A stretch of DNA of 64,000 nucleotides, taken from the NCBI GenBank assembly GCA_017858255.1, contig JAFMBV010000009.1, positions 1 through 64,000 of the forward strand. Direction: 5' to 3'. The translations under genes were made by a program, and so were the position numbers. Below the pieces are notes generated by a model, which searched no databases, was not told the origin of the DNA, and saw only the letters and a list, made by a program, of their open reading frames with translations. How positions within the stretch are numbered: the stretch's first letter is position 1; the number at the start of each line of letters is the position of its first letter. The DNA is from Bacteriovoracaceae bacterium. GTDB taxonomy: Bacteria > Bdellovibrionota > Bacteriovoracia > Bacteriovoracales > Bacteriovoracaceae. Shown here piece by piece: positions 11,416 through 27,293 of this stretch.

Positions 11416-12013
11416 TTACCGGACTATTCAACATCTGAATGAGCATAAAATCAATCATTTCTCCTTTGATTTAAGGCCCAGATCTCTCAATTTTATTCAA
11501 GAATATAGATTATTAGAGATATTAGAAAAAACTCAACTTGGAACTGTTTACCTTCATTTTCAAAACGAAAAGCCTTATGTCGTCGAAAGGTTATATAACA
11601 ATTGTTTAAAGGTTTTTAGTGGCAATATTCTTGTTGAATACTCAGGCCATATCGATAAAGAGCTTGTTATAGAGAGTAAGATTCCTTTTCTTGCTCATGT
11701 CGAAAATAAAGAGCTTGGAAAGGTTTATAGTAATGACTTGTGTCAGGGACATGTATTCTCGTACGAATTTTTAAAAGACCTTCAAATGAGAGGTGAGTTT
11801 CTGAATTGGGTCACTTCTTATTACCAGATATTTAATTCTAAAAGTTTTAATTTACTGCAAATTTTAAATTTGGATTGGGATAGCGATGTCTTTCCGACAT
11901 TATTTGAATACTTCGATTTTGATTTAATAAGCTTGCCCATTAATAATAAAATTGAGGTTTGTTATAGAAATGTAGATTTAAATAAGGTAAGCACACATCT
12001 AAAAACAATTTGA
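11381..12013 (+). CDS. TrpF-like barrel protein, probably divergent
   Basis: No confident family match. The N-terminus (HRISGIYDYRTIQHL, then INHFSFDLRPRSLNF) recalls phosphoribosylanthranilate isomerase TrpF, where KICGIT and a GFIF...SPR segment occupy these places. The length (210 residues) suits a beta/alpha barrel. The catalytic cysteine position (CGI in TrpF) is serine here (SGI), so the enzyme may be inactive or altered. It overlaps the amidotransferase gene by 35 bases, so co-expression is likely. ATG codons at 11372 and 11381 are both possible; the latter puts the conserved lysine next to the start. Confidence 0.5.
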   Translation: MKSSHRISGIYDYRTIQHLNEHKINHFSFDLRPRSLNFIQEYRLLEILEKTQLGTVYLHFQNEKPYVVERLYNNCLKVFSGNILVEYSGHIDKELVIESKIPFLAHVENKELGKVYSNDLCQGHVFSYEFLKDLQMRGEFLNWVTSYYQIFNSKSFNLLQILNLDWDSDVFPTLFEYFDFDLISLPINNKIEVCYRNVDLNKVSTHLKTI

Positions 12014-12038
12014 TACTGCTCATTTTTTAAGGACCCTA

Positions 12039-12818
12039 ATGAAAATTCTAATTTCCAATGATGATGGAGTTCATGCTCCAGGAATAAAAAGCTTATATAA
12101 GGGATTAGGGGAAGACCATGATGTATTTGTTGTGGCACCACTTGAGGAGAGGTCAACGACTGGTCATACTTTATCCTTAGATAACCCATTACGTATCGTA
12201 GCGATTGACGAAGAAAAAAATATCTATGGTTGCTCAGGATATCCAGCTGATTGTACTTTAATGGGTTTTGGAAAACTAATGGACTCAAGGCCAGATATTA
12301 TCGTTAGTGGGATTAATCGAGGGGCTAACTTAGGCCAGGACATTTACTACTCTGGTACGGTAGCAGCGGCTAGAGAAGGTGTGTTCCATGGCTTTGCAGC
12401 AATTTCTATATCCTCTGTTTGTGATTTCATTTCCATAAAAGATAAGACGATCCATTTTGATAGCGCAACGAAGTTTCTTCGAAAAGTCTTAAAAGATAAT
12501 GAAGTTTTAAAGCTTATTAGTCCTTTCCATCTGGTTAATATCAATGTCCCTGATGTTTCTTACGAAGAAATTAAGGGGGTTAAAATAACCGAGTTAGGAT
12601 ATAGAAAATACTCTGAAGAAATTTCAGAAAGAGAAGACTTCCGAGGACGTAGTTATTATTGGGTAGGCGGTATTTATCAAGGCTTTGATGGAAACGATAA
12701 AACCGACTGTTTTGCTGTGGAAAAAGGGTTTATTTCTATAACTATTCTCAATCTTTTAGGTGGTAAAGCCGAAAAGCTAGATGAGTGGCATAAGATAGCA
12801 GATAATTTTATCTTGTAA
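12039..12818 (+). CDS. surE: 5'/3'-nucleotidase SurE
   Basis: SurE is a metal-dependent phosphatase acting on nucleoside 5'- and 3'-monophosphates and exopolyphosphate, often linked to survival under stress. The 259 residues carry the diagnostic N-terminal ILISNDDGVHAPGI with the metal-binding Asp pair, the ERSTTGH segment, and SGINRGANLGQDIYYSGTVAAAREG. AAGGA lies before the ATG. A short hairpin follows the stop, before the M23 lipoprotein gene. Confidence 0.95.
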   Translation: MKILISNDDGVHAPGIKSLYKGLGEDHDVFVVAPLEERSTTGHTLSLDNPLRIVAIDEEKNIYGCSGYPADCTLMGFGKLMDSRPDIIVSGINRGANLGQDIYYSGTVAAAREGVFHGFAAISISSVCDFISIKDKTIHFDSATKFLRKVLKDNEVLKLISPFHLVNINVPDVSYEEIKGVKITELGYRKYSEEISEREDFRGRSYYWVGGIYQGFDGNDKTDCFAVEKGFISITILNLLGGKAEKLDEWHKIADNFIL

Positions 12819-16203: not shown

Positions 16204-17808
16204 ATGATTAAAAAATTACTATTCTTATTTCTGCTACTTAATTCCAACCATAGTAAAGAGCTCACCATCCTTCATACGAATGATTTACATAGTTATTTTA
16301 AAGGTTCACTTGAAAAAAATGAGAGTGGAGTTTTACGTTCAGGTGGTTATGAATTATTAGGTCAATTAATAAATAATACAAAATCGAGTGAAAAAGAAAA
16401 GGGTCGTTTCGTTTTGCTTGTCGATGCAGGTGACTTTTATTCGGGAACTTTGTTCCATTCTATTGCCATGAGAGCAGACATACCACTATTTCCAGAATAT
16501 GAGTTTTTCAATACTCTTGACTACCACGCTATCACTCTTGGTAATCATGAATTTGATGGCAAGGATGATGGGTTTGCCTTATTAATGAAAAAGGTTAAAT
16601 TATTGGGCGCCAAAGTTCCAATTATCTCTACTAATTACAAAACTCTTAAAAGTAAAAAATATCCAATATTTAATTCAAAGATTATTACTTTAAAGAATGG
16701 TTTAGATGAATTGAAAGTGGGGGTTCTGGGTGCACTGGGGCCAGATGGATGTTCTGTAAGTACTGGAAGTCGGAATGAAAACTCTTTTGTTGGTTACAAA
16801 GATAAAGAAAGGCGTGAGAACTGGAGTGAGCTCATAGCTATACTCTCAAAGGAATCGTTAAAGTTAAAAAAAATGGGCTCCGAGGTTAATATTCTTTTAC
16901 TTCATGGTGGCGGTGAAGAGGATGAATTACTTGCTAAGAAGGTTCGCCAAATAGATTCGATTATCTCGGGTCACACGCATCAAGTTTACATCAAGGAGTT
17001 TGGACGTACCGTTGTTTCTCAAGCTGGTCATTATGGTAAGTATCTAGGTCGTATGCCTTTGGTCATTAGCAAAGAGGGAGTGACGCTTTCTAAGGAAGGT
17101 CCTTATCATATCAAGATTCAGGAAGGTAGTGACAAAAGTATTGCCATTGAAAATCGAATTAAAGTGTATGAAAGAATGACAAAAAAAATATTAGAGGAAG
17201 AGAAAATATATTTAAATGGGGTGAGAAAATTTGATAAGAATTATACGAAAACTACTATCCCGCCTGTTGGGACTTTTATTGCTGATAGAGTTTTAAAGGA
17301 AATAAAGAGGCGTAATAAGAACGTCGATATATATTTCTTACCAAATGGTCACATTAGAAACCCAATATTTAAGGATTACAATTATCAAGTAGATGATTTA
17401 TTTAATGTTCTTCCTCTTGGGTTTCATGAAGGTCATCACCTAGGATATAAAGTTGTTTCCTTTTACTTAAGTTATGGTGACTTGGTTTCTTTAGTTGATT
17501 TTTTAGATATCTATTCAAAATTTAATAAAAAGGCATTTCCATCTTATAGCTCCAATCTAAAATACAAGATTAGAGAATGGGGGATACCTTTTATTAATAG
17601 AGTTAAAGGGCTATCAATTGAGAAAAAACAAAAAAGCGACTTCATTAAAGTTGCTACAAACAGTTTTCTATTTAGCTATCTTGACCTGATTAAGAAAAAA
17701 ACCTTCGGAGTAATAAAAATTGTACCTCGTGGGGAAAATGGTGAACCAATAGAGAAACCAACCAATCTAGATTCAGAAGTCAGCTATTTCCTAAATAGTT
17801 TCAATTAG
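16204..17808 (+). CDS. 5'-nucleotidase/cyclic phosphodiesterase, UshA-like, exported
   Basis: A 534-residue secreted phosphoesterase. Residues 1-18 look like a signal peptide. The N-terminal metallophosphatase domain has all dimetal motifs: LHTNDLHSYF, VDAGDFYSGT, TLGNHEFDG, LLLHGG and SGHTHQVY. The C-terminal half fits the 5'-nucleotidase substrate domain (FNVLPLGFHEGHHLGY). Likely substrates are nucleotides or 2',3'-cyclic nucleotides in the periplasm or outside the cell, useful for salvaging nucleic acid breakdown products. Its 3' end overlaps the convergent scoB gene by eight bases. Confidence 0.88.
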   Translation: MIKKLLFLFLLLNSNHSKELTILHTNDLHSYFKGSLEKNESGVLRSGGYELLGQLINNTKSSEKEKGRFVLLVDAGDFYSGTLFHSIAMRADIPLFPEYEFFNTLDYHAITLGNHEFDGKDDGFALLMKKVKLLGAKVPIISTNYKTLKSKKYPIFNSKIITLKNGLDELKVGVLGALGPDGCSVSTGSRNENSFVGYKDKERRENWSELIAILSKESLKLKKMGSEVNILLLHGGGEEDELLAKKVRQIDSIISGHTHQVYIKEFGRTVVSQAGHYGKYLGRMPLVISKEGVTLSKEGPYHIKIQEGSDKSIAIENRIKVYERMTKKILEEEKIYLNGVRKFDKNYTKTTIPPVGTFIADRVLKEIKRRNKNVDIYFLPNGHIRNPIFKDYNYQVDDLFNVLPLGFHEGHHLGYKVVSFYLSYGDLVSLVDFLDIYSKFNKKAFPSYSSNLKYKIREWGIPFINRVKGLSIEKKQKSDFIKVATNSFLFSYLDLIKKKTFGVIKIVPRGENGEPIEKPTNLDSEVSYFLNSFN

Positions 17809-18412
17809 GTAGTTTGCATTGAGCTTCAGTTACTCCAGGGGCCAGTGTTATTATCCTGAATTGTTTATTTTCTGGTCTAAAATGACCTAGGTTGGTAACG
17901 ATTTCATGAACGACAGACTTTCCTGTTAGTGGGAGATTTGTCTCTTTTAGTAATTTTGGTGCTCCAGACTTTGTGAAATGAGACATCATGATAACTACCT
18001 TTTTAGCGCCATTTACAAGGTCCATAGCACCACCCATGCCTGTTATTTTCTTTCCTGGTATCATCCAGTTGGCCAAATTTCCATAAACATCAACTTCCAT
18101 TGCCCCGAGGACACAATAGTCAATGTGTCCACCTCTTATCATCCCAAAAGACAGGGAAGAGTCAAAAAAACTAGCTCCCTTTTTAATGGATATAGTTTCT
18201 TTTCCGGCATTTATTAAGGTGGGGCTTACTGAATCTTTATTTGGTCTGCCCATTACGCCTAGAACCCCATTTTCAGAATGAATCATTATTGATTTTTCAT
18301 GCGGAATCTCTTGGGCTACTAAGCTAGGTAGTCCGATACCAAGGTTAACGCTGGAGAATTCAGGAAATAGTGAGGCAACATATTTTGCCATCTCTTCATT
18401 AGACCAGCTCAT
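17801..18412 (-). CDS. scoB: 3-oxoacid CoA-transferase subunit B
   Basis: The B subunit of a family I CoA-transferase, which moves CoA between succinyl-CoA and a 3-oxoacid such as acetoacetate. The catalytic glutamate is in IMIHSENGVLGV, the nucleotide-like loop is VNLGIGLPSLVA, and GGAMDLVNGAKKVVIMM is typical. The ATG at 18412 (203 residues) has GAGG a few bases upstream and is preferred over the TTG at 18424. It overlaps scoA by 14 bases and is the last gene of the six-gene operon. The true acid substrate may differ in this context. Confidence 0.9.
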   Translation of the reverse strand: MSWSNEEMAKYVASLFPEFSSVNLGIGLPSLVAQEIPHEKSIMIHSENGVLGVMGRPNKDSVSPTLINAGKETISIKKGASFFDSSLSFGMIRGGHIDYCVLGAMEVDVYGNLANWMIPGKKITGMGGAMDLVNGAKKVVIMMSHFTKSGAPKLLKETNLPLTGKSVVHEIVTNLGHFRPENKQFRIITLAPGVTEAQCKLPN

Positions 18413-19112
18413 TTTTACCCTCAACTTTCAAGAATTCAATATCATTCTTATAGTCTTTCCCTTGATATATTCGTTGAACAAAAAGCCCTGGTAGATGAAT
18501 ATCCTCTGGTTTGATATCCCCAACCTTTACAAGTTTTTCCACTTCAACAATTGTAGTTTTTGCGGCCATCGCCATTAGGGGAGAAAAGTTTCTAGCTGAT
18601 TCTTTAAACCAGAGGTTGCCATAATCATCGCCAATTTCTGCTTTTATAATTGCGTAATCGGCATGTAGGGCCTCTTCTAAGATGCATGGTCGATCAAAAT
18701 CTTTAGTTTCCTTACCTTCCGCGACTAATGTTCCGTGGCCTGTCGGTGTGTAGAAAGCACGAATACCCATTCCAGCAGCTCTTATTCTCTCTGAAAATGT
18801 ACCTTGAGGAATCAGTTCAATTTCGATTAGTTTATTTATTATTTGCTCTTCTAGATCTGGGTTTCCCCCTACGTAAGAGCAGTAGGCCTTAGATATCATA
18901 TGTTTTTTAAGCCAACTAACTAAACCTCTTCCACTATTTCCAATGTTATTTGAAATAACACTCAAATCTTTCAAATTAAGTTCAGATATAGCTTCAATAG
19001 AATTTTCAGGTATGCCACAAAGTCCAAAACCACCAGACATTATGTGGGAGCCATTTTTAATATCTTTTACTGCCTCTTTGGCATTATTAAAGACTTTAGG
19101 AGAGTTTTTCAT
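18399..19112 (-). CDS. scoA: 3-oxoacid CoA-transferase subunit A
   Basis: The 237-residue A subunit, with IMSGGFGLCGIPENSIEA near the N-terminus (CoA-binding glycine loop) and IRAAGMGIRAFYTPTGHGT in the middle. It is expected to form a heterotetramer with the B subunit encoded immediately downstream. It overlaps the upstream aminotransferase gene by 17 bases, so the CoA-transferase is part of the same pathway unit and would activate, or recover CoA from, a keto or oxo acid produced there. Confidence 0.9.
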   Translation of the reverse strand: MKNSPKVFNNAKEAVKDIKNGSHIMSGGFGLCGIPENSIEAISELNLKDLSVISNNIGNSGRGLVSWLKKHMISKAYCSYVGGNPDLEEQIINKLIEIELIPQGTFSERIRAAGMGIRAFYTPTGHGTLVAEGKETKDFDRPCILEEALHADYAIIKAEIGDDYGNLWFKESARNFSPLMAMAAKTTIVEVEKLVKVGDIKPEDIHLPGLFVQRIYQGKDYKNDIEFLKVEGKNELV

Positions 19113-20286
19113 TTAATAATAATCCTACTTTATTTAGGCCTTTTTTTAAGGTACTTGAGCTCATCGTTAAATTAGGTGCAAGTATTAATCTTTGATTTTG
19201 AATTGAGGCGTATATCCCATTATCGATTAAGTCTTTAGTAACTAGTTTATCATTTACTTCTACAGCTCCTAGCAGGCCAATTGATCTGGATACTATCCCT
19301 TTATCTTTTAAAAGTTCAAAGAAATTAGCAAAAGACTCTATGTTTTTATATAATTGAGTTTTAAATTTATCTTCTTCTGTTAGGTCCAATACTGCTTTCA
19401 ATGCTGCTAGTCCTAATGGATGTCCATAGTTTGTAAGTCCACAGGAAAGAATATGCTTATCATAATAGTTTGATAGCTTTTGGGAGACAAGGACTACGCC
19501 TAGTGGGAAGTAGCCACCTGTTAATGCTTTTGCGGCCACAATTAGGTCTGGTTTTAGAAATGGATAGTTCTGGAAACCGAAGAAGGGTCCTGTCCTGTGA
19601 CCGGCGCATACAACCTCATCGAGAATCAACAAAATTTTATGCTTCTTTAAAATTCTATTTAGTGCTTTATACCATTTCTGAGTAGGTATAAAAACTCCAT
19701 TTCCACCAGTAATAGTTTCTAAGCAAATTGCAGCGATTTTATCTGTACCTATTGAAACGATTAAAGCATCTAGCTTTTCACCATTCGGATCATCTTGTGG
19801 ATTGGGTATAGTTTTTGTCCACTGTTTTGGAAGTAGATGGTCTTTGTTTCTCCAATCTCCTGTAATGGAAAGTGCGCCCATAGTAGCACCATGGTAAGAA
19901 TTCTTTTGAGATAAAATAATTTTTCTTCCCGTGATTTGGCGGGCTATTTTTAATGCGTTCTCAATTCCTTCACTTCCACTTAAAGTAAAGAAACATTTAT
20001 ATTTTGAACCTGTCTTTTCTATTAACCTTGTTGATACTTCTTGTTTTAAGTGAAAGGTTTGTTTTGGAGAAGCTAGCGAGAATTCACCCATCTGCTTTTT
20101 TATCGCATTTAAGATTTTAGAATTTTTTAGTCCAAATGATGCTTGGTAACTAATGGACGATAGATTTAGCCACTTGTTATTTTTTTCAAAAAAGTAATCG
20201 TTGCTGACCCTCTCTAACGGAATAGTTAAGGCCTCATTTTGTGAGGTCCAAGTTATAAAATAGGGAAGGGACTTATCTTCTTTCAT
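19096..20286 (-). CDS. Class III PLP-dependent aminotransferase
   Basis: A complete 396-residue fold-type I aminotransferase. FTLSGSEGIENALKIAR binds the cofactor phosphate, SYHGATMGALS follows, LILDEVVCAGHRTGPFFG holds the cofactor-ring aspartate, and the Schiff-base lysine is in VAAKALTGGYFPLG. Class III enzymes act on omega- or beta-amino groups (GABA, beta-alanine, acetylornithine, 3-aminobutyryl-CoA) and on adenosylmethionine/DAPA; the substrate cannot be read from sequence. The adjacent CoA-transferase makes a beta-amino or omega-amino acid substrate plausible. Overlaps on both sides show an operon. Confidence 0.88.
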   Translation of the reverse strand: MKEDKSLPYFITWTSQNEALTIPLERVSNDYFFEKNNKWLNLSSISYQASFGLKNSKILNAIKKQMGEFSLASPKQTFHLKQEVSTRLIEKTGSKYKCFFTLSGSEGIENALKIARQITGRKIILSQKNSYHGATMGALSITGDWRNKDHLLPKQWTKTIPNPQDDPNGEKLDALIVSIGTDKIAAICLETITGGNGVFIPTQKWYKALNRILKKHKILLILDEVVCAGHRTGPFFGFQNYPFLKPDLIVAAKALTGGYFPLGVVLVSQKLSNYYDKHILSCGLTNYGHPLGLAALKAVLDLTEEDKFKTQLYKNIESFANFFELLKDKGIVSRSIGLLGAVEVNDKLVTKDLIDNGIYASIQNQRLILAPNLTMSSSTLKKGLNKVGLLLNEKLS

Positions 20287-21329
20287 GACAACTTAATCTT
20301 TATTTCTTTATAAGTAGAATCTTCCTTTGGGCAGCCTCTCCAAAAGAAAAAGTCTTTTGTTTCGTGGTTAAATACACCACCTCCACAAGTAATAGATGGA
20401 TCCTGGGCCCCTGATTGAAAATGACCGCATATGGACTTAGGGTATCCTTCGTGACTTTGAAGTAACTCTATCAACTCCATCTCTGTATTAATTTTTGGAA
20501 CTGCTGATTCAAGTAACTTAAACCTTTCTTTGCTCGTTGAATTAACAGACAATTTCTCTTCTATTTCGATGAGCCCTGCAGTTAAACAGTGGTTTGTATG
20601 AAAGATTGTTCCTTTATTTTTGAATTCACTGGCAGTTTCATTTCTGGTAGGACTTATTTCTTGATGCCTTGAACCTAAAAGGTCGCTAAAAAGATAATTA
20701 TGGGCACCTGTAAATGAAGTGCTCTTTGCCAGAATCATTACTTCTTCTACATTTTTCTTTTGAAGCGATTTTCTAACAAATGCTGGCCATACTATTCCCG
20801 GTTTCGCATCAGTTGTGTTCATATTATTTACACCGACGAAAAGCGAGTCCTTGTTAGCCCCCATCATGCCTAAGCAACCGACAAGTGAGAAGACAGTCCA
20901 TTTACCAGGGTTTTCAATAATGCATACGTAGTTCTTAGCTGTTGAGTGCATGTCCCACGTCTGACCGGATAATCTTTGTTCTGTATTTACACCTATCGTA
21001 CTGCAGCCTTCTTCTGGTAAATTGATGTCCCTGAAATCAGTATAGTTATTTATTATGATGATATCCTCTATAGGACATCCTGATCCGTCTGATATACCAC
21101 GTAATTCTTCAGACAATTCGTTATCAAAAGCTTTTGTTTCGTTAAACTGGTCTTGCGCTAAAGAATTTATATTTTCTTTAAGATGAGGGGACCTTTGAAT
21201 CAGAAGACCTCTTCTTATTTGAGATAGTTCTGCTATTGCCTGTGAAAACTCTCGGCCATGATTGAATCCATTTTTGTATGATGAAAGTGTCTCATTAAAA
21301 ATAATGTGTGGAAATTCTACATCAATCAT
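20283..21329 (-). CDS. C45-family Ntn hydrolase (acyl-CoA:6-APA acyltransferase-like)
   Basis: This 348-residue protein resembles peptidase family C45, autoprocessing N-terminal nucleophile amidohydrolases that include isopenicillin N acyltransferase and insect beta-alanyl-dopamine hydrolase. The probable nucleophile is the cysteine in EEGCSTIGV (about residue 108), preceded by the NNYTDFRD segment; WDMHSTAKNY follows. Self-cleavage before this cysteine would give the active enzyme. The expected reaction is hydrolysis or acyl transfer at an amide. It overlaps the genes on both sides by four bases. No signal peptide is visible. Confidence 0.78.
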   Translation of the reverse strand: MIDVEFPHIIFNETLSSYKNGFNHGREFSQAIAELSQIRRGLLIQRSPHLKENINSLAQDQFNETKAFDNELSEELRGISDGSGCPIEDIIIINNYTDFRDINLPEEGCSTIGVNTEQRLSGQTWDMHSTAKNYVCIIENPGKWTVFSLVGCLGMMGANKDSLFVGVNNMNTTDAKPGIVWPAFVRKSLQKKNVEEVMILAKSTSFTGAHNYLFSDLLGSRHQEISPTRNETASEFKNKGTIFHTNHCLTAGLIEIEEKLSVNSTSKERFKLLESAVPKINTEMELIELLQSHEGYPKSICGHFQSGAQDPSITCGGGVFNHETKDFFFWRGCPKEDSTYKEIKIKLS

Positions 21330-24300
21330 TTGGCCTCTAGGTAGCTTTTCATTGCACAGTAGCTTGGATCAATTAAATGACCATCTATTGTTTTTCTAAA
21401 CTTATGTCTTAAAGAATATGGTACGGGTCCAACGGTGATTCCACGGCCGTTAATGATTGTGTGGCATAGACTTGGAAAATTCTCTAATTCTTCAATTATC
21501 TTTAAATGAAAGTCATGTCTTGTTTTGAGATAATCCGCTTTATTCTCTATGATCTTCTTCGCCCCGAGGTGATAGGAGGCAAATGCATGCTCATCTCCAT
21601 CCCACGTGGATATCATCATCAGTGGTTTAGAGACAAATAAAGCTTCTTTTAAGAATACAATTCCAGCTTGGCCACCAAGGAAAGAAAAACCAGCATCTGG
21701 AGTGATACTTTTGTCATTTGAGGCGAAGTAGAAGTCTTCACTGTAAGTGTATTGCTGAGAAGCTGTCTCATTATAAATAAGGGGAACATTGAACTGGTTT
21801 GCTAAAGCCTTTAGCTCTACCAAAAAGCTTAGAGGTGTTTTTTCATAGGTATTTTGAAGAATAGGCTCTAACCATATTGAGTTTATTTCGTTTTTTTCAA
21901 GTAGCATTTTCACGCTTTCGATTACTTCTTTAGAGTTTTCTTCATTAGGCCTTTGAAGTTTGATAGTTGGAAAGTAGGTGTGCTCTTCGTCCCCTGATAA
22001 AGATCTGCTTAAAAAACTACCAGAGCCAAAGAAATGACCATCAAATGTTAGTAATTTGCTTTCGGAATTAAATTTTTGGGAATTATAAATTATTGATTTA
22101 AATACTTTATCAACACATTCAGACTGACCAGAAGTCGTGTAGCCATGTTGAAGTTCTAAAGGTGCTAGTTCAAGTATAAATTTAACATGGGTTAAAAACT
22201 GTTCACTAACAAAATTGGACAGGCAAACTTTATTTGTTAAGTATGGTAATTGAGTTTTTATATAATTGAGGTCGATATCTGGACCATCAATTGATGAGTT
22301 TATTCTATTTCCAAGATTGGGTTCTTTTTGTTCCCATTCTAGAGGTGTCTCATAATAAATTACATCCCTATATTTTTCGAAATCTGGATAATCTTCTCTC
22401 AAGTGAATTTGCTCATAACTACCTAGAGAGAGGTTTATGTTAAGCATCTTTGCAGCGAGTTTATCTCTATTTCGACCCTTTATAGATTTATAATTACGGT
22501 TAATAGAAATATAGGAAAGTGCATATTTTAAGAACCTACCTAGTCCTAGGTTTTGGTGCTTTTCTCTTACCGTAGCATCAATCATGTAAAGGCATAATGG
22601 ATTGATAAAATCTGGATCTTGGCGAATACCTCTTTCAAGAGGGTGGTCCTCAAGACTGCTGGAAAATACGATAGCAGATAATTTTTCGCCATCGTGCATA
22701 CCAAGGCATATCCCATGATTTGAATTGGCACATATTCTAAACCTCTCTATTGAAGTTTGTCTGGTAGGTTCGTAAATCTCTTTTTGCATCTCTTCAATAT
22801 CGTCTTTGTATATATCGAAGTTCTCTTTATTAATGACGATAAGGTTCTGAGTTTTCTTTCCAATTTTATAATGTTTTTCAAAAAGGTTTTTTATATTTGC
22901 TATGCTCTCTGTTTCGTTGGTAGATAACCCATTAAGTCTATTTAGTCTTGCTTCAAGAATGAGATGTTGCCAAGCTTCGGTTTTGTTTATTCCTCTTGCA
23001 TTTGTAATCACCTTACCGGAAAAAGGTTCATTTTTATCGTTGAATATAAACTCGCCGATAGCTGTTAAACGCTCAAAAAGAAAATCGATGTCTTTATTTG
23101 AATAACTTGTATTTAATCTGAATCTGAGCGTTTTTTCACCTGCAGGGTAGTAAAGTAGGCCATGCTTAAACCTTTCACTTATAAACTTCATTGCGATTTC
23201 ACTCTTATCTAGATCGAAGGCAAAACTAAGCCCCATGGCCCTCGGCCGAGTGATGTTAGGAGAAAATATTTCTTGGAATTCTTTTAACTTTTTTGCAGAA
23301 TATTCTTCAATTTCTTGAATTTTCAATTTCGACTGGTCTAGCGCTAATCCATGATAATAGCCCCTTATTAGTGAAGCTGCTTGGAACTGTTCTCTACGTT
23401 CAAGAGAGTCCTTTCTTAATTCGTGTGGGCTGAGAACAAGACCTACCTGTGCTTTCTTTGCACAAATTAAGTAGTCGGGCATTAGTTGCTCATCATTTTG
23501 GTCCCTTAGACAAAATTGTCTATGCCAGAAAAAATCACGTCCTAAATGGAAACCTGTTTGCACTTCATCGTGAATTACAGCAACGTTGAATGATCTTGCC
23601 ATAAGAAGTAGTGCCGTGTGAAAACGATCTGTTGAATAACGATCGCCGCCTTCACACTGCATTGGCTCGACGATGATAGAGAATATATCCCCAACTTCAA
23701 GTTTCTTCTTTATTTTTAAAAGACAATCAATTTCCTTAACAAGCATTTCATCTTTTGGCCAATCCTTTGGTAGTACATGATTTTTGGCCGGTGAATTATC
23801 CCAAACTTCTCTCCAGTTTTTGGGATATTCTTGGTGAATTTCAGAACCTGGTAGTTCTGGGTAATCTGTATATTCGGTTTCAAAACCTTTCCATTGAAAT
23901 GGCTCTCTTTTTGATTTATTCCATGTAGAAAATAAACTTACTAACATTCTTCCATGAAAACTACCTTCAAAGGCCAATACCTTCTTGGCACTTTTGTTGA
24001 TACGTCGTTTAAAGGCATAGCCAAGAGCGATCTCATTACTTTCAGCTCCGCTATTACAAACTGTCATATCTAAATGTTTCCACCCCGTTTTTCTGAGTAG
24101 AAATGAATGGAATACATTTTTAACTTTAATAAAATTAGGATCGCTTAAGTCATTAGTCCAACTTGCCATATGATGAGCAGTACCCATAAATACGCTTGGG
24201 CTAAAACCGAGTCCCAATGTTGCAATTTGGCTAGCAGCATCCATTATGTAATGGGTCTCATTTGTGCCAGTCTCTATCCCCATGAAAGGACCATGGTTGT

Positions 24301-24418
24301 TTGTGAGCTCTGTAAGGTAAGCTTTCTTTTCGGCAGGAATTAGACCGTCTTTATAAAATTTTGATAGCTTTTCCTCTGCATACTTTTGATCGTTATCATT
24401 TATAAGTGTAATTTCCAT
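21326..24418 (-). CDS. Fusion: class III aminotransferase - GNAT - pseudo-aminotransferase
   Basis: A 1030-residue protein in three parts. Residues about 1-460 are a class III aminotransferase resembling L-lysine 6-transaminase: VCNSGAESNEIALGYAF, SFHGRMLVS, IHDEVQTGF (residues 282-290) and the lysine motif ICAKKAQVG (318-326). Residues about 530-690 are a GNAT acetyltransferase with DATVREKHQNLGLGRFL. Residues about 710-1030 again resemble an aminotransferase (TSGQSECVDKVF, GHFFGSGSF), but TPDAGFSFLGGQAG (906-919) lacks the Schiff-base lysine and NETASQQ replaces DEVQTG, so this part is probably inactive. Only ten bases separate it from ddl. Confidence 0.82.
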   Translation of the reverse strand: MEITLINDNDQKYAEEKLSKFYKDGLIPAEKKAYLTELTNNHGPFMGIETGTNETHYIMDAASQIATLGLGFSPSVFMGTAHHMASWTNDLSDPNFIKVKNVFHSFLLRKTGWKHLDMTVCNSGAESNEIALGYAFKRRINKSAKKVLAFEGSFHGRMLVSLFSTWNKSKREPFQWKGFETEYTDYPELPGSEIHQEYPKNWREVWDNSPAKNHVLPKDWPKDEMLVKEIDCLLKIKKKLEVGDIFSIIVEPMQCEGGDRYSTDRFHTALLLMARSFNVAVIHDEVQTGFHLGRDFFWHRQFCLRDQNDEQLMPDYLICAKKAQVGLVLSPHELRKDSLERREQFQAASLIRGYYHGLALDQSKLKIQEIEEYSAKKLKEFQEIFSPNITRPRAMGLSFAFDLDKSEIAMKFISERFKHGLLYYPAGEKTLRFRLNTSYSNKDIDFLFERLTAIGEFIFNDKNEPFSGKVITNARGINKTEAWQHLILEARLNRLNGLSTNETESIANIKNLFEKHYKIGKKTQNLIVINKENFDIYKDDIEEMQKEIYEPTRQTSIERFRICANSNHGICLGMHDGEKLSAIVFSSSLEDHPLERGIRQDPDFINPLCLYMIDATVREKHQNLGLGRFLKYALSYISINRNYKSIKGRNRDKLAAKMLNINLSLGSYEQIHLREDYPDFEKYRDVIYYETPLEWEQKEPNLGNRINSSIDGPDIDLNYIKTQLPYLTNKVCLSNFVSEQFLTHVKFILELAPLELQHGYTTSGQSECVDKVFKSIIYNSQKFNSESKLLTFDGHFFGSGSFLSRSLSGDEEHTYFPTIKLQRPNEENSKEVIESVKMLLEKNEINSIWLEPILQNTYEKTPLSFLVELKALANQFNVPLIYNETASQQYTYSEDFYFASNDKSITPDAGFSFLGGQAGIVFLKEALFVSKPLMMISTWDGDEHAFASYHLGAKKIIENKADYLKTRHDFHLKIIEELENFPSLCHTIINGRGITVGPVPYSLRHKFRKTIDGHLIDPSYCAMKSYLEAK

Positions 24419-24427
24419 TTTTTATCC

Positions 24428-25426
24428 TTAACTATTAAATATTCTATTTCTTAAATACTCTTCATATTTAACACCAGAGTTCTCCATCATTAGTGGAAAC
24501 ATTGATATAGGTGTATGACCAGGGAATGTATTGATCTCATTAATAAGTGGGGTATTATCTTCGAGAAGAAAAAAATCAATCCTAGCAAGATCTTTTAAAC
24601 CAAGTCCAATAAAGGCGTTTGATGCCATCTCTGAGATCTTTGCTATTGTCTGGTTATCAATATTTTTAGCTATCGCTCTCGTCTCCGTTTTACTGTCGGA
24701 ATTGTATTTTTCTTTGTAGCTGTAAAAGCTCTCTGGACAATCAATTTCACCAGGAGGCGTAATGATGAGTTCATTTTGGTATTCAAAAGCTGCAACTTCC
24801 AACTCTCTACCAATATTCGTCTTTTCTGCTAAAACAATAGGGCTTAATTCTAAGGCCTTATGTAACTTCTCTTTAATCTGATTCTCTTCGGTAATGTGGT
24901 AGCAACCTACGGAAGATCCTTGATGGGTTGCTTTTAGAAAAATATCCTTTTTATTCTTCTCAAAAAAGTTAAATATTTTTTCTACGCTTGAGTCTGTTGA
25001 GTCTCTAACAAATACATATTCAGTATTTTTGATACCCAGTTTATCGAGCCATAATTTCGTGGAAACTTTATTAAAACAATTGATACTTGCTTCTGGGCCT
25101 GCTCCTAAATAGGGGAGACCCATGAGTTCAAAAACCGCTTGTATTTGGCCATTTTCACCTGGGGGTCCATGAATACAAGGAATAGCATAATCAAGGCTTA
25201 TTGTTTCTTGTGTCTCCCTGTTGAAGACTTCACCGGCTTTTCTTAACTCACACTCTTGATTTATTTCATTTGTTCTTCTTCCATTTTTCTCAATACATAA
25301 ATATATTATCTTAACTTCAGGAATGAGAGAGAGCTTACTTGTTATATATTTGGCCGAGATAAGAGAAATCTCATGTTCTGTTCCTCCACCACCGCAAATG
25401 AGAAGGACATTTTTAGATTGGCCCAT
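24428..25426 (-). CDS. ddl: D-alanine--D-alanine ligase (Ddl-type ATP-grasp)
   Basis: An ATP-grasp ligase of 332 residues. It has the full Ddl motif set: GGGGTEHEISLISA, IHGPPGENGQIQAVFELM, KATHQGSSVG, GRELEVA, SYKEKY, DLARIDFF and the metal-binding NEINTFPGHTPISMFP. The normal product is D-Ala-D-Ala for peptidoglycan. The setting is unusual: it heads an operon of amino-acid-modifying enzymes rather than lying among mur genes, so it could instead ligate another amino acid. The frame opens at 25450, but the ATG at 25426 is preceded by AAGGAAG with a six-base spacer. Confidence 0.88.
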   Translation of the reverse strand: MGQSKNVLLICGGGGTEHEISLISAKYITSKLSLIPEVKIIYLCIEKNGRRTNEINQECELRKAGEVFNRETQETISLDYAIPCIHGPPGENGQIQAVFELMGLPYLGAGPEASINCFNKVSTKLWLDKLGIKNTEYVFVRDSTDSSVEKIFNFFEKNKKDIFLKATHQGSSVGCYHITEENQIKEKLHKALELSPIVLAEKTNIGRELEVAAFEYQNELIITPPGEIDCPESFYSYKEKYNSDSKTETRAIAKNIDNQTIAKISEMASNAFIGLGLKDLARIDFFLLEDNTPLINEINTFPGHTPISMFPLMMENSGVKYEEYLRNRIFNS

Positions 25427-25535: not shown

Positions 25536-27293
25536 TTATTCCCCCTTTCTAAGGGCCTCTGGAATCCTTTCTTTATTAAGCGTATGAAACTTTTCTATAA
25601 GCTCTAAGGTGCTAATCGTTGTGGCGAATTTAGCTCCATACGAGCGAATACTCACACTGTCATTTTCAATCTCTTTGTCACCAATCACTAACATGAATGG
25701 AGCTTTAGATTTTTGAATTTGGCGTGTTTTATAACCCATTGATTCGTTTCTATCATCTACTCTTACGCGGTAGCCCAAGTCGTGAAGTCTTTCATTTAGT
25801 TTTTGGGCATACTCTAGATGGGTTGCATTGTTTACAGGTACAATGATGACCTGTTCTGGTGCTAGCCAGAATGGAAATGCACCCCCGACATGTTCAAGAT
25901 AGACCCCAATAAACCTTTCTAGAGAACCTAGAAGCGCCCTGTGGATTACGACTGGTCTTGATTCACTGCCTTCAGAGTTGGTGTAACTTAAATTAAATCT
26001 TTCAGGTAATTGAAAGTCTAACTGGATTGTACCTAATTGATGATAGCGATTAAGTGCGTCCGATATTTCTACGTCAATTTTTGGGCCATAGAAAGCACCG
26101 TCGCCCTCTTTAATAGAATACTCATATCCGCTGGAATCAAGTGCATGCTTCAGAGCATCTTCTGCTTTGTCCCATGTAGAGTCATCACCAGCTTTCTTTT
26201 CCGGTCTTGTCGAAAGGTTAACTTTTATATTTTTAAAATCAAAATGCTTGTAACAGATGAAAAACATCTCCATAAGCTTTTGAATTTCTTTTTGTATGCC
26301 ATCCATTTCTATAAAGATATGAGCATCATCTTGGCAGAAAGTCCTTACTCTCGTTAGGCCAGCTACAGCTCCCGCTTTTTCATAACGATGAAGACGACCA
26401 AAATCAGCATATCTTAGCGGAAGATCTCTGTAAGAATACTTGTAGTGGGCAAACATAAGCATGTGGCATGGGCAATTCATTGGCTTAACTGCATACTCTT
26501 TCTCATCAATTTTTGAGAAATACATATTTTCTTTGTAATGATCATAGTGGCCAGATGTTTGCCATAGATCTGAGTCTAGAATCTGAGGTGTGATTACTTC
26601 ATCATAGCCGTATTCCCGATAAACTCTTCTCATAAAGTCTACGAGTTCATTATAAACTCTGGCACCTTTAGGCATAAAAAATGGAGATGCAGGAGCTACT
26701 CTTTCGAAGTGAAAAAGTTCTAACTCTTTACCCAGTTTTCTATGGTCACGTTTTTTGGCTTCTTCTAAAAAGTGAAGGTGCTCTTTTAATTCTTTTCTAT
26801 CCTTAAAACAGGCAGCGTAGACTCTTTGTAGCATTTGTCGTTTTTCATCACCACGCCAATAGGCACCTGCCACATGCAATAACTTAAAGGCCATTGGAAT
26901 GTCTGATGTCTTTTCCACGTGGGGTCCACGGCAGAGATCTATGAAATCGCCTTGTTGATAGCAGGATATTTCCTCATTTTCAGGAAAAGAATTAATTAAC
27001 TCTATTTTTAATTCTTGGCCTTCTTTTTTAAAGAAAGTCAGGGCTTCATTTTTTTCTAAAACTTTTTTTTCTATCGGAAGCTTCTCTTTAATGATTTTCT
27101 TCATCTCATTTTCTATATTTTTGAGATCTTCTTCCGTGAGTCTGTGCTCCATTTCGACATCATAATAGAAACCATTCTCTATAACTGGACCTACTCCAAA
27201 CTGAATATTGTTATCCGGCCAAATACGAGAGATGGCCTGGGCCATTAAGTGTGCGCCTGAGTGACGTATAGTGTCTAAGTCAAATGTGGCCAT
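25536..27293 (-). CDS. thrS: Threonyl-tRNA synthetase lacking the TGS domain
   Basis: A class II synthetase that charges tRNA-Thr. The 585 residues begin directly with the editing domain (IRHSGAHLMAQAI, residues 9-21; its HxxxH zinc/editing motif is complete and CRGPHV follows), then the catalytic core (MNCPCHMLMF, RVRTFCQDDAHIF, VVIHRALLGSLERF) and the anticodon-binding domain. The roughly 60-residue N-terminal TGS domain of most bacterial enzymes is absent; an in-frame TAG 18 bases before the ATG excludes a longer protein. GGAG precedes the start. It lies upstream of the ddl operon on the same strand. Confidence 0.94.
   Translation of the reverse strand: MATFDLDTIRHSGAHLMAQAISRIWPDNNIQFGVGPVIENGFYYDVEMEHRLTEEDLKNIENEMKKIIKEKLPIEKKVLEKNEALTFFKKEGQELKIELINSFPENEEISCYQQGDFIDLCRGPHVEKTSDIPMAFKLLHVAGAYWRGDEKRQMLQRVYAACFKDRKELKEHLHFLEEAKKRDHRKLGKELELFHFERVAPASPFFMPKGARVYNELVDFMRRVYREYGYDEVITPQILDSDLWQTSGHYDHYKENMYFSKIDEKEYAVKPMNCPCHMLMFAHYKYSYRDLPLRYADFGRLHRYEKAGAVAGLTRVRTFCQDDAHIFIEMDGIQKEIQKLMEMFFICYKHFDFKNIKVNLSTRPEKKAGDDSTWDKAEDALKHALDSSGYEYSIKEGDGAFYGPKIDVEISDALNRYHQLGTIQLDFQLPERFNLSYTNSEGSESRPVVIHRALLGSLERFIGVYLEHVGGAFPFWLAPEQVIIVPVNNATHLEYAQKLNERLHDLGYRVRVDDRNESMGYKTRQIQKSKAPFMLVIGDKEIENDSVSIRSYGAKFATTISTLELIEKFHTLNKERIPEALRKGE

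Follow-up and report, generated by a model that had tools for sequence, protein, structure and literature searches.

The described pathways closest to the locus reported here involve a lysine 2,3-aminomutase. In methanogens, AblA/AblB pairs produce the solute N6-acetyl-beta-lysine. In Bacillus, the kam/yod locus (kamA, yodP, yodQ, yodR, yodS, yodT) couples the aminomutase to the products of yodP-yodT: an N-acetyltransferase, a class III aminotransferase, a two-subunit CoA-transferase and an amide hydrolase/deacetylase, with YodQ being a metal-dependent deacetylase. The solute made by AblA/AblB in methanogens is the topic of PMC12776343. Bacillus kamA and its six neighboring genes serve lysine metabolism under sigma54/KamR (PMC4428206), the role of KamA being given as undetermined and YodT as uncharacterized (PMC6522883). 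Clostridial lysine fermentation proceeds through KamA-KamDE-Kdd-Kce-Kal/Kat (PMC3149608).

The locus considered here lies in a window of 64,000 nucleotides (positions 1 to 64,000 of contig JAFMBV010000009.1) from a Bacteriovoracaceae bacterium, and we read it as two joined things: a housekeeping thrS-ddl pair and, behind it, a five-gene catabolic cassette coding for a fusion protein, a C45 enzyme, a second aminotransferase (AT2) and ScoAB. Its enzyme classes resemble those of the kam/yod system, and a class III aminotransferase and ScoAB share one operon. However, kamA is clustered in Bacillus, whereas KamA here belongs to a divergent clade and is not linked to the cassette; the acetyltransferase is flanked in one chain by an active aminotransferase domain and a dead one and falls short of the AblB family threshold; there is an extra second aminotransferase; and the hydrolase is of the C45 Ntn type, in contrast to the metal-dependent YodQ type, of which the operon has none. 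The initial annotation knew of no pathway of this composition: the likeness to kam/yod qualifies this remark. We found no description of the cassette itself in open papers.

Organization and conservation of the locus

Table 1. Features of the locus (window coordinates)
Feature	Position	Strand	Evidence
thrS, threonyl-tRNA synthetase	25536..27293	-	ORF; thrS-ddl adjacency kept with and without cassette
ddl, D-alanine--D-alanine ligase	24428..25426	-	NF002527 329.8 bits, cut-off 310
Fusion, 1030 aa: class III aminotransferase + GNAT acetyltransferase + degenerate aminotransferase	21326..24418	-	
Fusion domain 1, class III aminotransferase, ~aa 1-470	23009..24418	-	PF00202; catalytic Lys321
Fusion domain 2, GNAT N-acetyltransferase, ~aa 505-703	22310..22906	-	Predicted fold; motif QNLGLG
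GNAT acetyl-CoA-binding motif Q-x-x-G-x-G, aa 622-627	22538..22555	-	
Fusion domain 3, aminotransferase-like, ~aa 704-1030	21329..22309	-	Without PLP lysine
C45 (Ntn) autoproteolytic acyltransferase/hydrolase	20283..21329	-	NF040521 145 bits, cut-off 85
AT2, second class III aminotransferase, catalytic Lys253	19096..20286	-	PF00202 177.6 bits
scoA, 3-oxoacid CoA-transferase subunit A	18399..19112	-	TIGR02429 245 bits, above cut-off
scoB, 3-oxoacid CoA-transferase subunit B, SENG motif, Glu51	17801..18424	-	TIGR02428 258 bits, above cut-off

All six minus-strand genes of the initial annotation were found in the ORF list of the window, with ddl starting at the ATG at 25426 (25450 is merely the start of the longest TTG ORF), and profile searches assigned them to Ddl (PF01820/PF07478), the PF00202 aminotransferases, C45 (PF03417/NF040521) and ScoBA (TIGR02428/TIGR02429). 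A gap of 9 bp between ddl and the fusion gene is followed by overlaps of 4 bp (fusion/C45), 4 bp (C45/AT2), 17 bp (AT2/scoA) and up to 26 bp (scoA/scoB, varying with the scoB start chosen). One Bacteriovoracaceae-type family keeps this order across 20 of its genera, and it is identical in all mapped fusion loci of that family whose contig spans the region, with short gaps and overlaps like those of the window. The run is not a chance one, because the identical order recurs across these neighborhoods; the single conserved unit first proposed is supported. Upstream, thrS precedes ddl by 85 bp in the same orientation. No terminator-like site was found on the minus strand between thrS and ddl or between ddl and the fusion gene; hence, the transcription unit may begin at or before thrS, which is probably its head and stands outside the pathway.

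The fusion has so far been seen in four families of the phylum. It adjoins C45 in all four fusion genomes from the three further families, where the rest of the block, ddl included, is absent next to the two genes. In one of these genomes (G365), genes for a CoA-transferase pair, a class III aminotransferase and a thiolase lie near them; another (G367) has dapF just upstream. A scan of genome contigs with exact patterns from the fusion matched only close relatives, and a plasmid search returned only ordinary aminotransferases.

The fusion protein and its partner enzymes

The first domain of the fusion has Lys321 and Asp284 invariant in 52/52 homologues, and its nearest solved structures are acetylornithine aminotransferase, GABA aminotransferase and lysine epsilon-aminotransferase. 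The second domain has no significant family in Pfam or NCBIfam, and matches the AblB profile weakly (hhalign probability 40%, E=3e-4; below the TIGR03827 threshold). Its AlphaFold model (pLDDT 71, pTM 0.72) nevertheless retrieved GNATs as all of the best 50 PDB matches, and in its acetyl-CoA-binding motif Gly627 is invariant in 52/52 homologues and Gly625 is kept in 48/52. On its predicted fold, the middle part is hence a GNAT acetyltransferase. The initial annotation described a three-part aminotransferase fusion without recognizing its middle part, the acetyltransferase on which the logic of the proposed pathway turns. The third domain matches the profile of the first (E=1.9e-10) and PF00202 (E=8.5e-4), with a conserved Gln917 at the motif matching the PLP lysine and no Lys there in 52 homologues. 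By these alignments it is an aminotransferase fold devoid of the PLP lysine, and it probably forms the inactive half of a same-chain aminotransferase dimer. A full-length model of the fusion was discarded (pLDDT 47 with a four-sequence alignment), as was a full-length fold search, whose matches were sequence-driven with TM ~0.1. We found no described family for the fusion.

The C45 protein has its Gly108-Cys109 autoprocessing site invariant in 23/23 sequences. The solved structures closest to it are entries for acyl-CoA:6-APA acyltransferase, a family with which it shares the domain and the Gly-Cys nucleophile, but from which it differs in being bacterial and part of a catabolic cassette. Amide cleavage, as first proposed, is retained as its likeliest role, and it may act as the deacetylase of the pathway. 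In AT2, whose closest solved structure is taurine:2-oxoglutarate aminotransferase, Lys253 and Asp223 are invariant in 19/19 sequences, as is Glu51 of ScoB (19/19).

Association with KamA and a putative route via beta-lysine

The genome of the window codes for a KamA (L008) on a contig (C2) other than that of the cassette (C26), and in no mapped neighborhood does KamA lie within the cassette. L008 reads as a lysine 2,3-aminomutase by its conserved residues; its NCBIfam equivalog score of 277 bits is below the cut-off of 525. This KamA keeps the CxxxCxxC cluster, and the equivalents of Asp293, Asp330 and Lys337 of a solved lysine 2,3-aminomutase (2A5H) are present in 48/48 aligned sequences, some genes being read twice from two loci. 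Among 129 genomes of the family, 58 have the fusion, 59 have KamA of the L008 type and 53 have both (20, 23 and 20 genera, respectively), counts that ignore shared ancestry, the 58 genomes representing far fewer independent events. The five fusion genomes without such a KamA are 68-88% complete. Of the six genomes with KamA only, four (G058, G059, G060 and G109) have the lysine 5,6-aminomutase KamD instead, and the remaining two have a completeness of 84% and 56%; every KamA-only genus of the family has KamD. Conversely, fusion and KamD occur together in 0/58 family genomes and in 0/4 fusion genomes outside the family, three of which have an AblA-like KamA, with no KamA-family match in the fourth (G367).

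In G058, G059 and G060, KamA (67-69% identical) lies divergent beside kdd, kamB and kamC, the run extending in G058 and G059 to kamD, kamE, an aminotransferase and kce; this adjacency ties the KamA clade to lysine. The same clade is thus paired there with the clostridial type of pathway, which resembles our proposal in its KamA and in ending in a CoA-transferase and a thiolase. It differs in that the genome of the window has no match to lysine 5,6-aminomutase (NF052384) or to BKACE/Kce (PF05853), the KamDE route and the cassette being mutually exclusive. Six thiolase loci are present in this genome, as are SSADH-like dehydrogenases, though none of the latter reaches the family cut-off.

We think it rather probable that the cassette and the unlinked KamA degrade lysine via beta-lysine, and infer the substrate, the order of steps and the assignment of the aminotransferases as follows. 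KamA would convert L-lysine to beta-lysine, which the GNAT domain would acetylate at N6, so that the later 3-oxo intermediate is kept from cyclizing onto a free amine. One aminotransferase (fusion domain 1 or AT2) would take off the 3-amino group, giving 6-acetamido-3-oxohexanoate; ScoAB would load this on CoA; and a thiolase encoded elsewhere would release acetyl-CoA, leaving 4-acetamidobutyryl-CoA. Once CoA is lost, the C45 Ntn hydrolase would deacetylate the product to 4-aminobutyrate, which the other aminotransferase would turn into succinate semialdehyde. The cassette would thereby stand in for the B12-dependent KamDE branch behind the same KamA. More tentatively, this B12-independent, acetyl-protected route, with aminotransferase, GNAT and built-in dead partner in one chain and C45 as deacetylase, may have taken the place of the lysine 5,6-aminomutase route in most of the Bacteriovoracaceae-type bacteria that have KamA. 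The earlier suggestions of a nutrient pathway, here of amino-acid degradation, and of deamination of a non-proteinogenic beta-amino acid with entry of the oxoacid into CoA metabolism thus gain support.

Alternative readings and the place of Ddl

The cassette could instead degrade another omega- or beta-amino compound (a polyamine, 5-aminovalerate or a DAP-derived product) by the same logic of acetylation, transamination, CoA loading and deacetylation, with the tie to KamA reflecting shared ecology or ancestry. PaiA, which we take to be a polyamine acetyltransferase, is among the fold matches of the GNAT domain; domain 1 is equally like GABA aminotransferase and lysine epsilon-aminotransferase; and G367, with dapF just upstream, has fusion and C45 without a KamA match. 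We nonetheless consider this unlikely, though worth keeping in mind, given KamA in 20/20 fusion genera of the family and KamD in every KamA-only genus, the KamA step being common to both the KamDE route and the cassette.

A poorer fit is a GNAT that supplies N6-acetyl-beta-lysine for use as a compatible solute, as AblA/AblB pairs do in methanogens, which likewise join a lysine 2,3-aminomutase to a GNAT acting, by hypothesis here, on beta-lysine, with the other genes recycling the product. A separate AblB above the family cut-off is present in eight fusion genomes and adjoins, at L154-L157, an ORF that looks like a transporter by sequence only. However, the genome of the window has no AblB match (TIGR03827), AblB sits elsewhere in the genome where it is present, and the synthase here is below the AblB threshold, fused to an aminotransferase and clustered with ScoAB and C45 in a degradative-looking cassette, which makes this explanation quite improbable.

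That Ddl forms an amide-linked, non-proteinogenic dipeptide of the cell wall or of storage, to be cleaved by C45, is largely refuted and very improbable: although ddl lies nine bases from the fusion gene and is co-directional with it in all mapped family loci, it is the sole canonical D-Ala-D-Ala ligase found in this genome (among PF07478 matches, the three weakest left out), has the true ligase residues (Glu25, Ser180, Tyr249, Arg290, Asp292, Glu305, Asn307 and Ser316 invariant in 19 sequences), is single-copy in nearly all family members, adjoins thrS in an unchanged context in relatives without the cassette and is not beside the fusion in other families. Five other PF07478 matches (L003-L007) were rejected as a second canonical Ddl on reading in full: they comprise a Ddl-like ATP-grasp protein whose neighbor is a metallopeptidase-like ORF, two enzymes of the biotin-carboxylase type, a purT-like one and another ATP-grasp protein. 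Ddl is therefore a hitchhiking housekeeping neighbor and not, as the initial annotation supposed, the amide ligase of the pathway; the finding agrees with one of the two patterns which that annotation had itself set against its proposal, that of no second ddl. Its ideas of a modified peptidoglycan or a storage peptide consequently lose their main support.

A false lead, a specialized Ddl amide ligase, is thereby removed, and the fusion, known to libraries merely as an aminotransferase, gains a testable function. Acetylated beta-lysine as a degradation intermediate would, if true, bear on the unexplained Bacillus kamA-yod locus. The KamDE module and the acetyl module behind the same KamA would offer a clean natural replacement in which to study the oxidation of amino acids by predatory-type bacteria.

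Gene order, distribution and boundary of the cassette

The window's contig, C26, belongs to a 4.08 Mb, 98% complete genome. In its six-ORF run, 9 bp separate ddl from the fusion gene, and the later genes overlap; the families proposed in the initial annotation, namely ddl, class III aminotransferases, a C45 enzyme and ScoAB, were borne out by family scans. A 5'-nucleotidase-like gene is convergent with scoB. When 369 genomes of the phylum were searched with a profile, the aminotransferase-GNAT fusion turned up in 58 of 129 members of the window's family and in four genomes outside it, which belong to three other families. The mapped family loci display a constant order: ddl, fusion, C45, second aminotransferase, scoA, scoB, with short gaps or overlaps and usually thrS preceding. 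The fusion and C45 alone remain together in the four distant genomes, and hence this pair makes up the core of the cassette. One distant fusion locus (L045) has a CoA-transferase pair nearby, together with a class III aminotransferase and, judging by sequence, a thiolase. In G367 a dapF gene closely precedes the fusion on its upstream side; in G365 the fusion shares a 16 kb contig with an ORF reading as dapB. This proximity is possibly chance, or possibly a link to DAP/lysine metabolism.

In all 14 cassette-free family neighbourhoods compared, the thrS-ddl pair occupies the same setting, ddl coming immediately after thrS but without the cassette to follow. An empty site in G055 (locus L127) marks the cassette boundary: there, ddl directly adjoins the genes that in the window lie on the far side of the cassette. 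This context, the single copy of Ddl in nearly all family members, with or without the cassette, and the invariance of its ligase residues in the homologues compared indicate that Ddl is a housekeeping enzyme, behind which the cassette was either inserted or lost. Elsewhere in the window's genome, the genes of a Ddl-like ATP-grasp protein and a metallopeptidase-like protein overlap: possibly a peptide-ligase pair unrelated to the cassette.

Coordinates of the gene run and of neighbouring or related features
Feature	Location	Position	Strand
Six-ORF run, ddl to scoB	window	17801-25426	-
5'-nucleotidase-like gene	window	16204-17808	+
8 bp coding overlap with scoB	window	17801-17808	
Ddl-like/metallopeptidase-like pair	L003 (contig C108)	1468-3563	
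dapF	L044 (G367)	11949-12728	
dapB-like ORF	L045 (G365)	416-1201	

Architecture of the fusion protein

Pfam recognises a single aminotransferase in the 1030 residues of the fusion; Lys321 and Asp284 of this first domain are invariant in 52/52 homologues. The middle segment scores weakly against the GNAT family (E=0.13); its domain model (pLDDT 71, pTM 0.72) has GNAT acetyltransferases as all 50 of its 50 best PDB matches, and its acetyl-CoA motif, QNLGLG, is largely conserved. The third segment is related to aminotransferases (profile comparison, E=1.9e-10), with the PLP lysine absent from all 52 homologues and replaced by Gln in 51. As class III aminotransferases act as dimers with shared active sites, it is a reasonable guess that this segment is a catalytically dead partner domain within the same chain.

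Association with lysine aminomutases

The window's genome codes for a divergent lysine 2,3-aminomutase (KamA; locus L008) and an EpmB-like relative (L009). KamA of the L008 type occurs in 59 family genomes, 53 of which also have the fusion; the five fusion genomes without it are all 68-88% complete. One distant genome with the core pair, G367, has no KamA match. KamD, from lysine 5,6-aminomutase, is present in four of the six family genomes with KamA but without the fusion, and in no genome together with the fusion among the family and distant fusion genomes searched. Fisher tests, descriptive figures that ignore phylogeny, yield 2e-23 (genomes) and 1e-10 (genera) for the association of KamA with the fusion, and 0.002 for the exclusion of KamD. 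In three fusion-less genomes of the family (G058-G060; L097, L094, L095) KamA is divergent from a kdd-kamB-kamC run of lysine fermentation genes, which extends to kamD-kamE-aminotransferase-kce in G058 and G059; this KamA belongs to the clade accompanying the cassette in other genomes. Aligned with the solved enzyme 2A5H, L008 keeps Asp293, Asp330 and Lys337, the residues that contact PLP and the side chain of lysine; their equivalents are kept in 48/48 aligned KamA sequences. The predicted substrate of the cassette rests on the co-occurrence with KamA.

At four loci of fusion-bearing genomes (L154, L155, L156, L157) a separate AblB, of the N6-acetyl-beta-lysine synthase type, adjoins a transporter-like ORF of ~470 aa, with a KamA-like ORF also nearby in L157; these may constitute an osmolyte system.

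A predicted acetyl-protected route and known lysine systems

The 3-amino group of beta-lysine must go before entry into CoA metabolism, and an unprotected 6-amino group would react with the 3-oxo group so formed, yielding a pyrroline. Hence, the GNAT domain would first acetylate N6, just as acetylation prevents such cyclisation in arginine biosynthesis. The aminotransferase would then remove the 3-amino group, followed by ScoAB and a thiolase encoded outside the cassette; deacetylation would fall to C45, and the second aminotransferase would handle 4-aminobutyrate. This scheme gives a putative role to every cassette gene. The window's genome has six thiolase loci; its candidate semialdehyde dehydrogenases all fall below the family cut-off, and it has no Kce, an enzyme of the clostridial lysine route.

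The list of enzymes resembles that of the Bacillus kam/yod locus, where kamA and six further genes constitute a lysine metabolism under sigma54/KamR control (PMC4428206), the physiological role of KamA being given as undetermined (PMC6522883). Unlike that type, the cassette has neither a linked kamA nor a YodQ-type deacetylase; it likewise lacks the tested features of the clostridial route (PMC3149608). Because of these differences from both types, we class it as a distinct, predicted form of beta-lysine degradation that would work like the Bacillus type.
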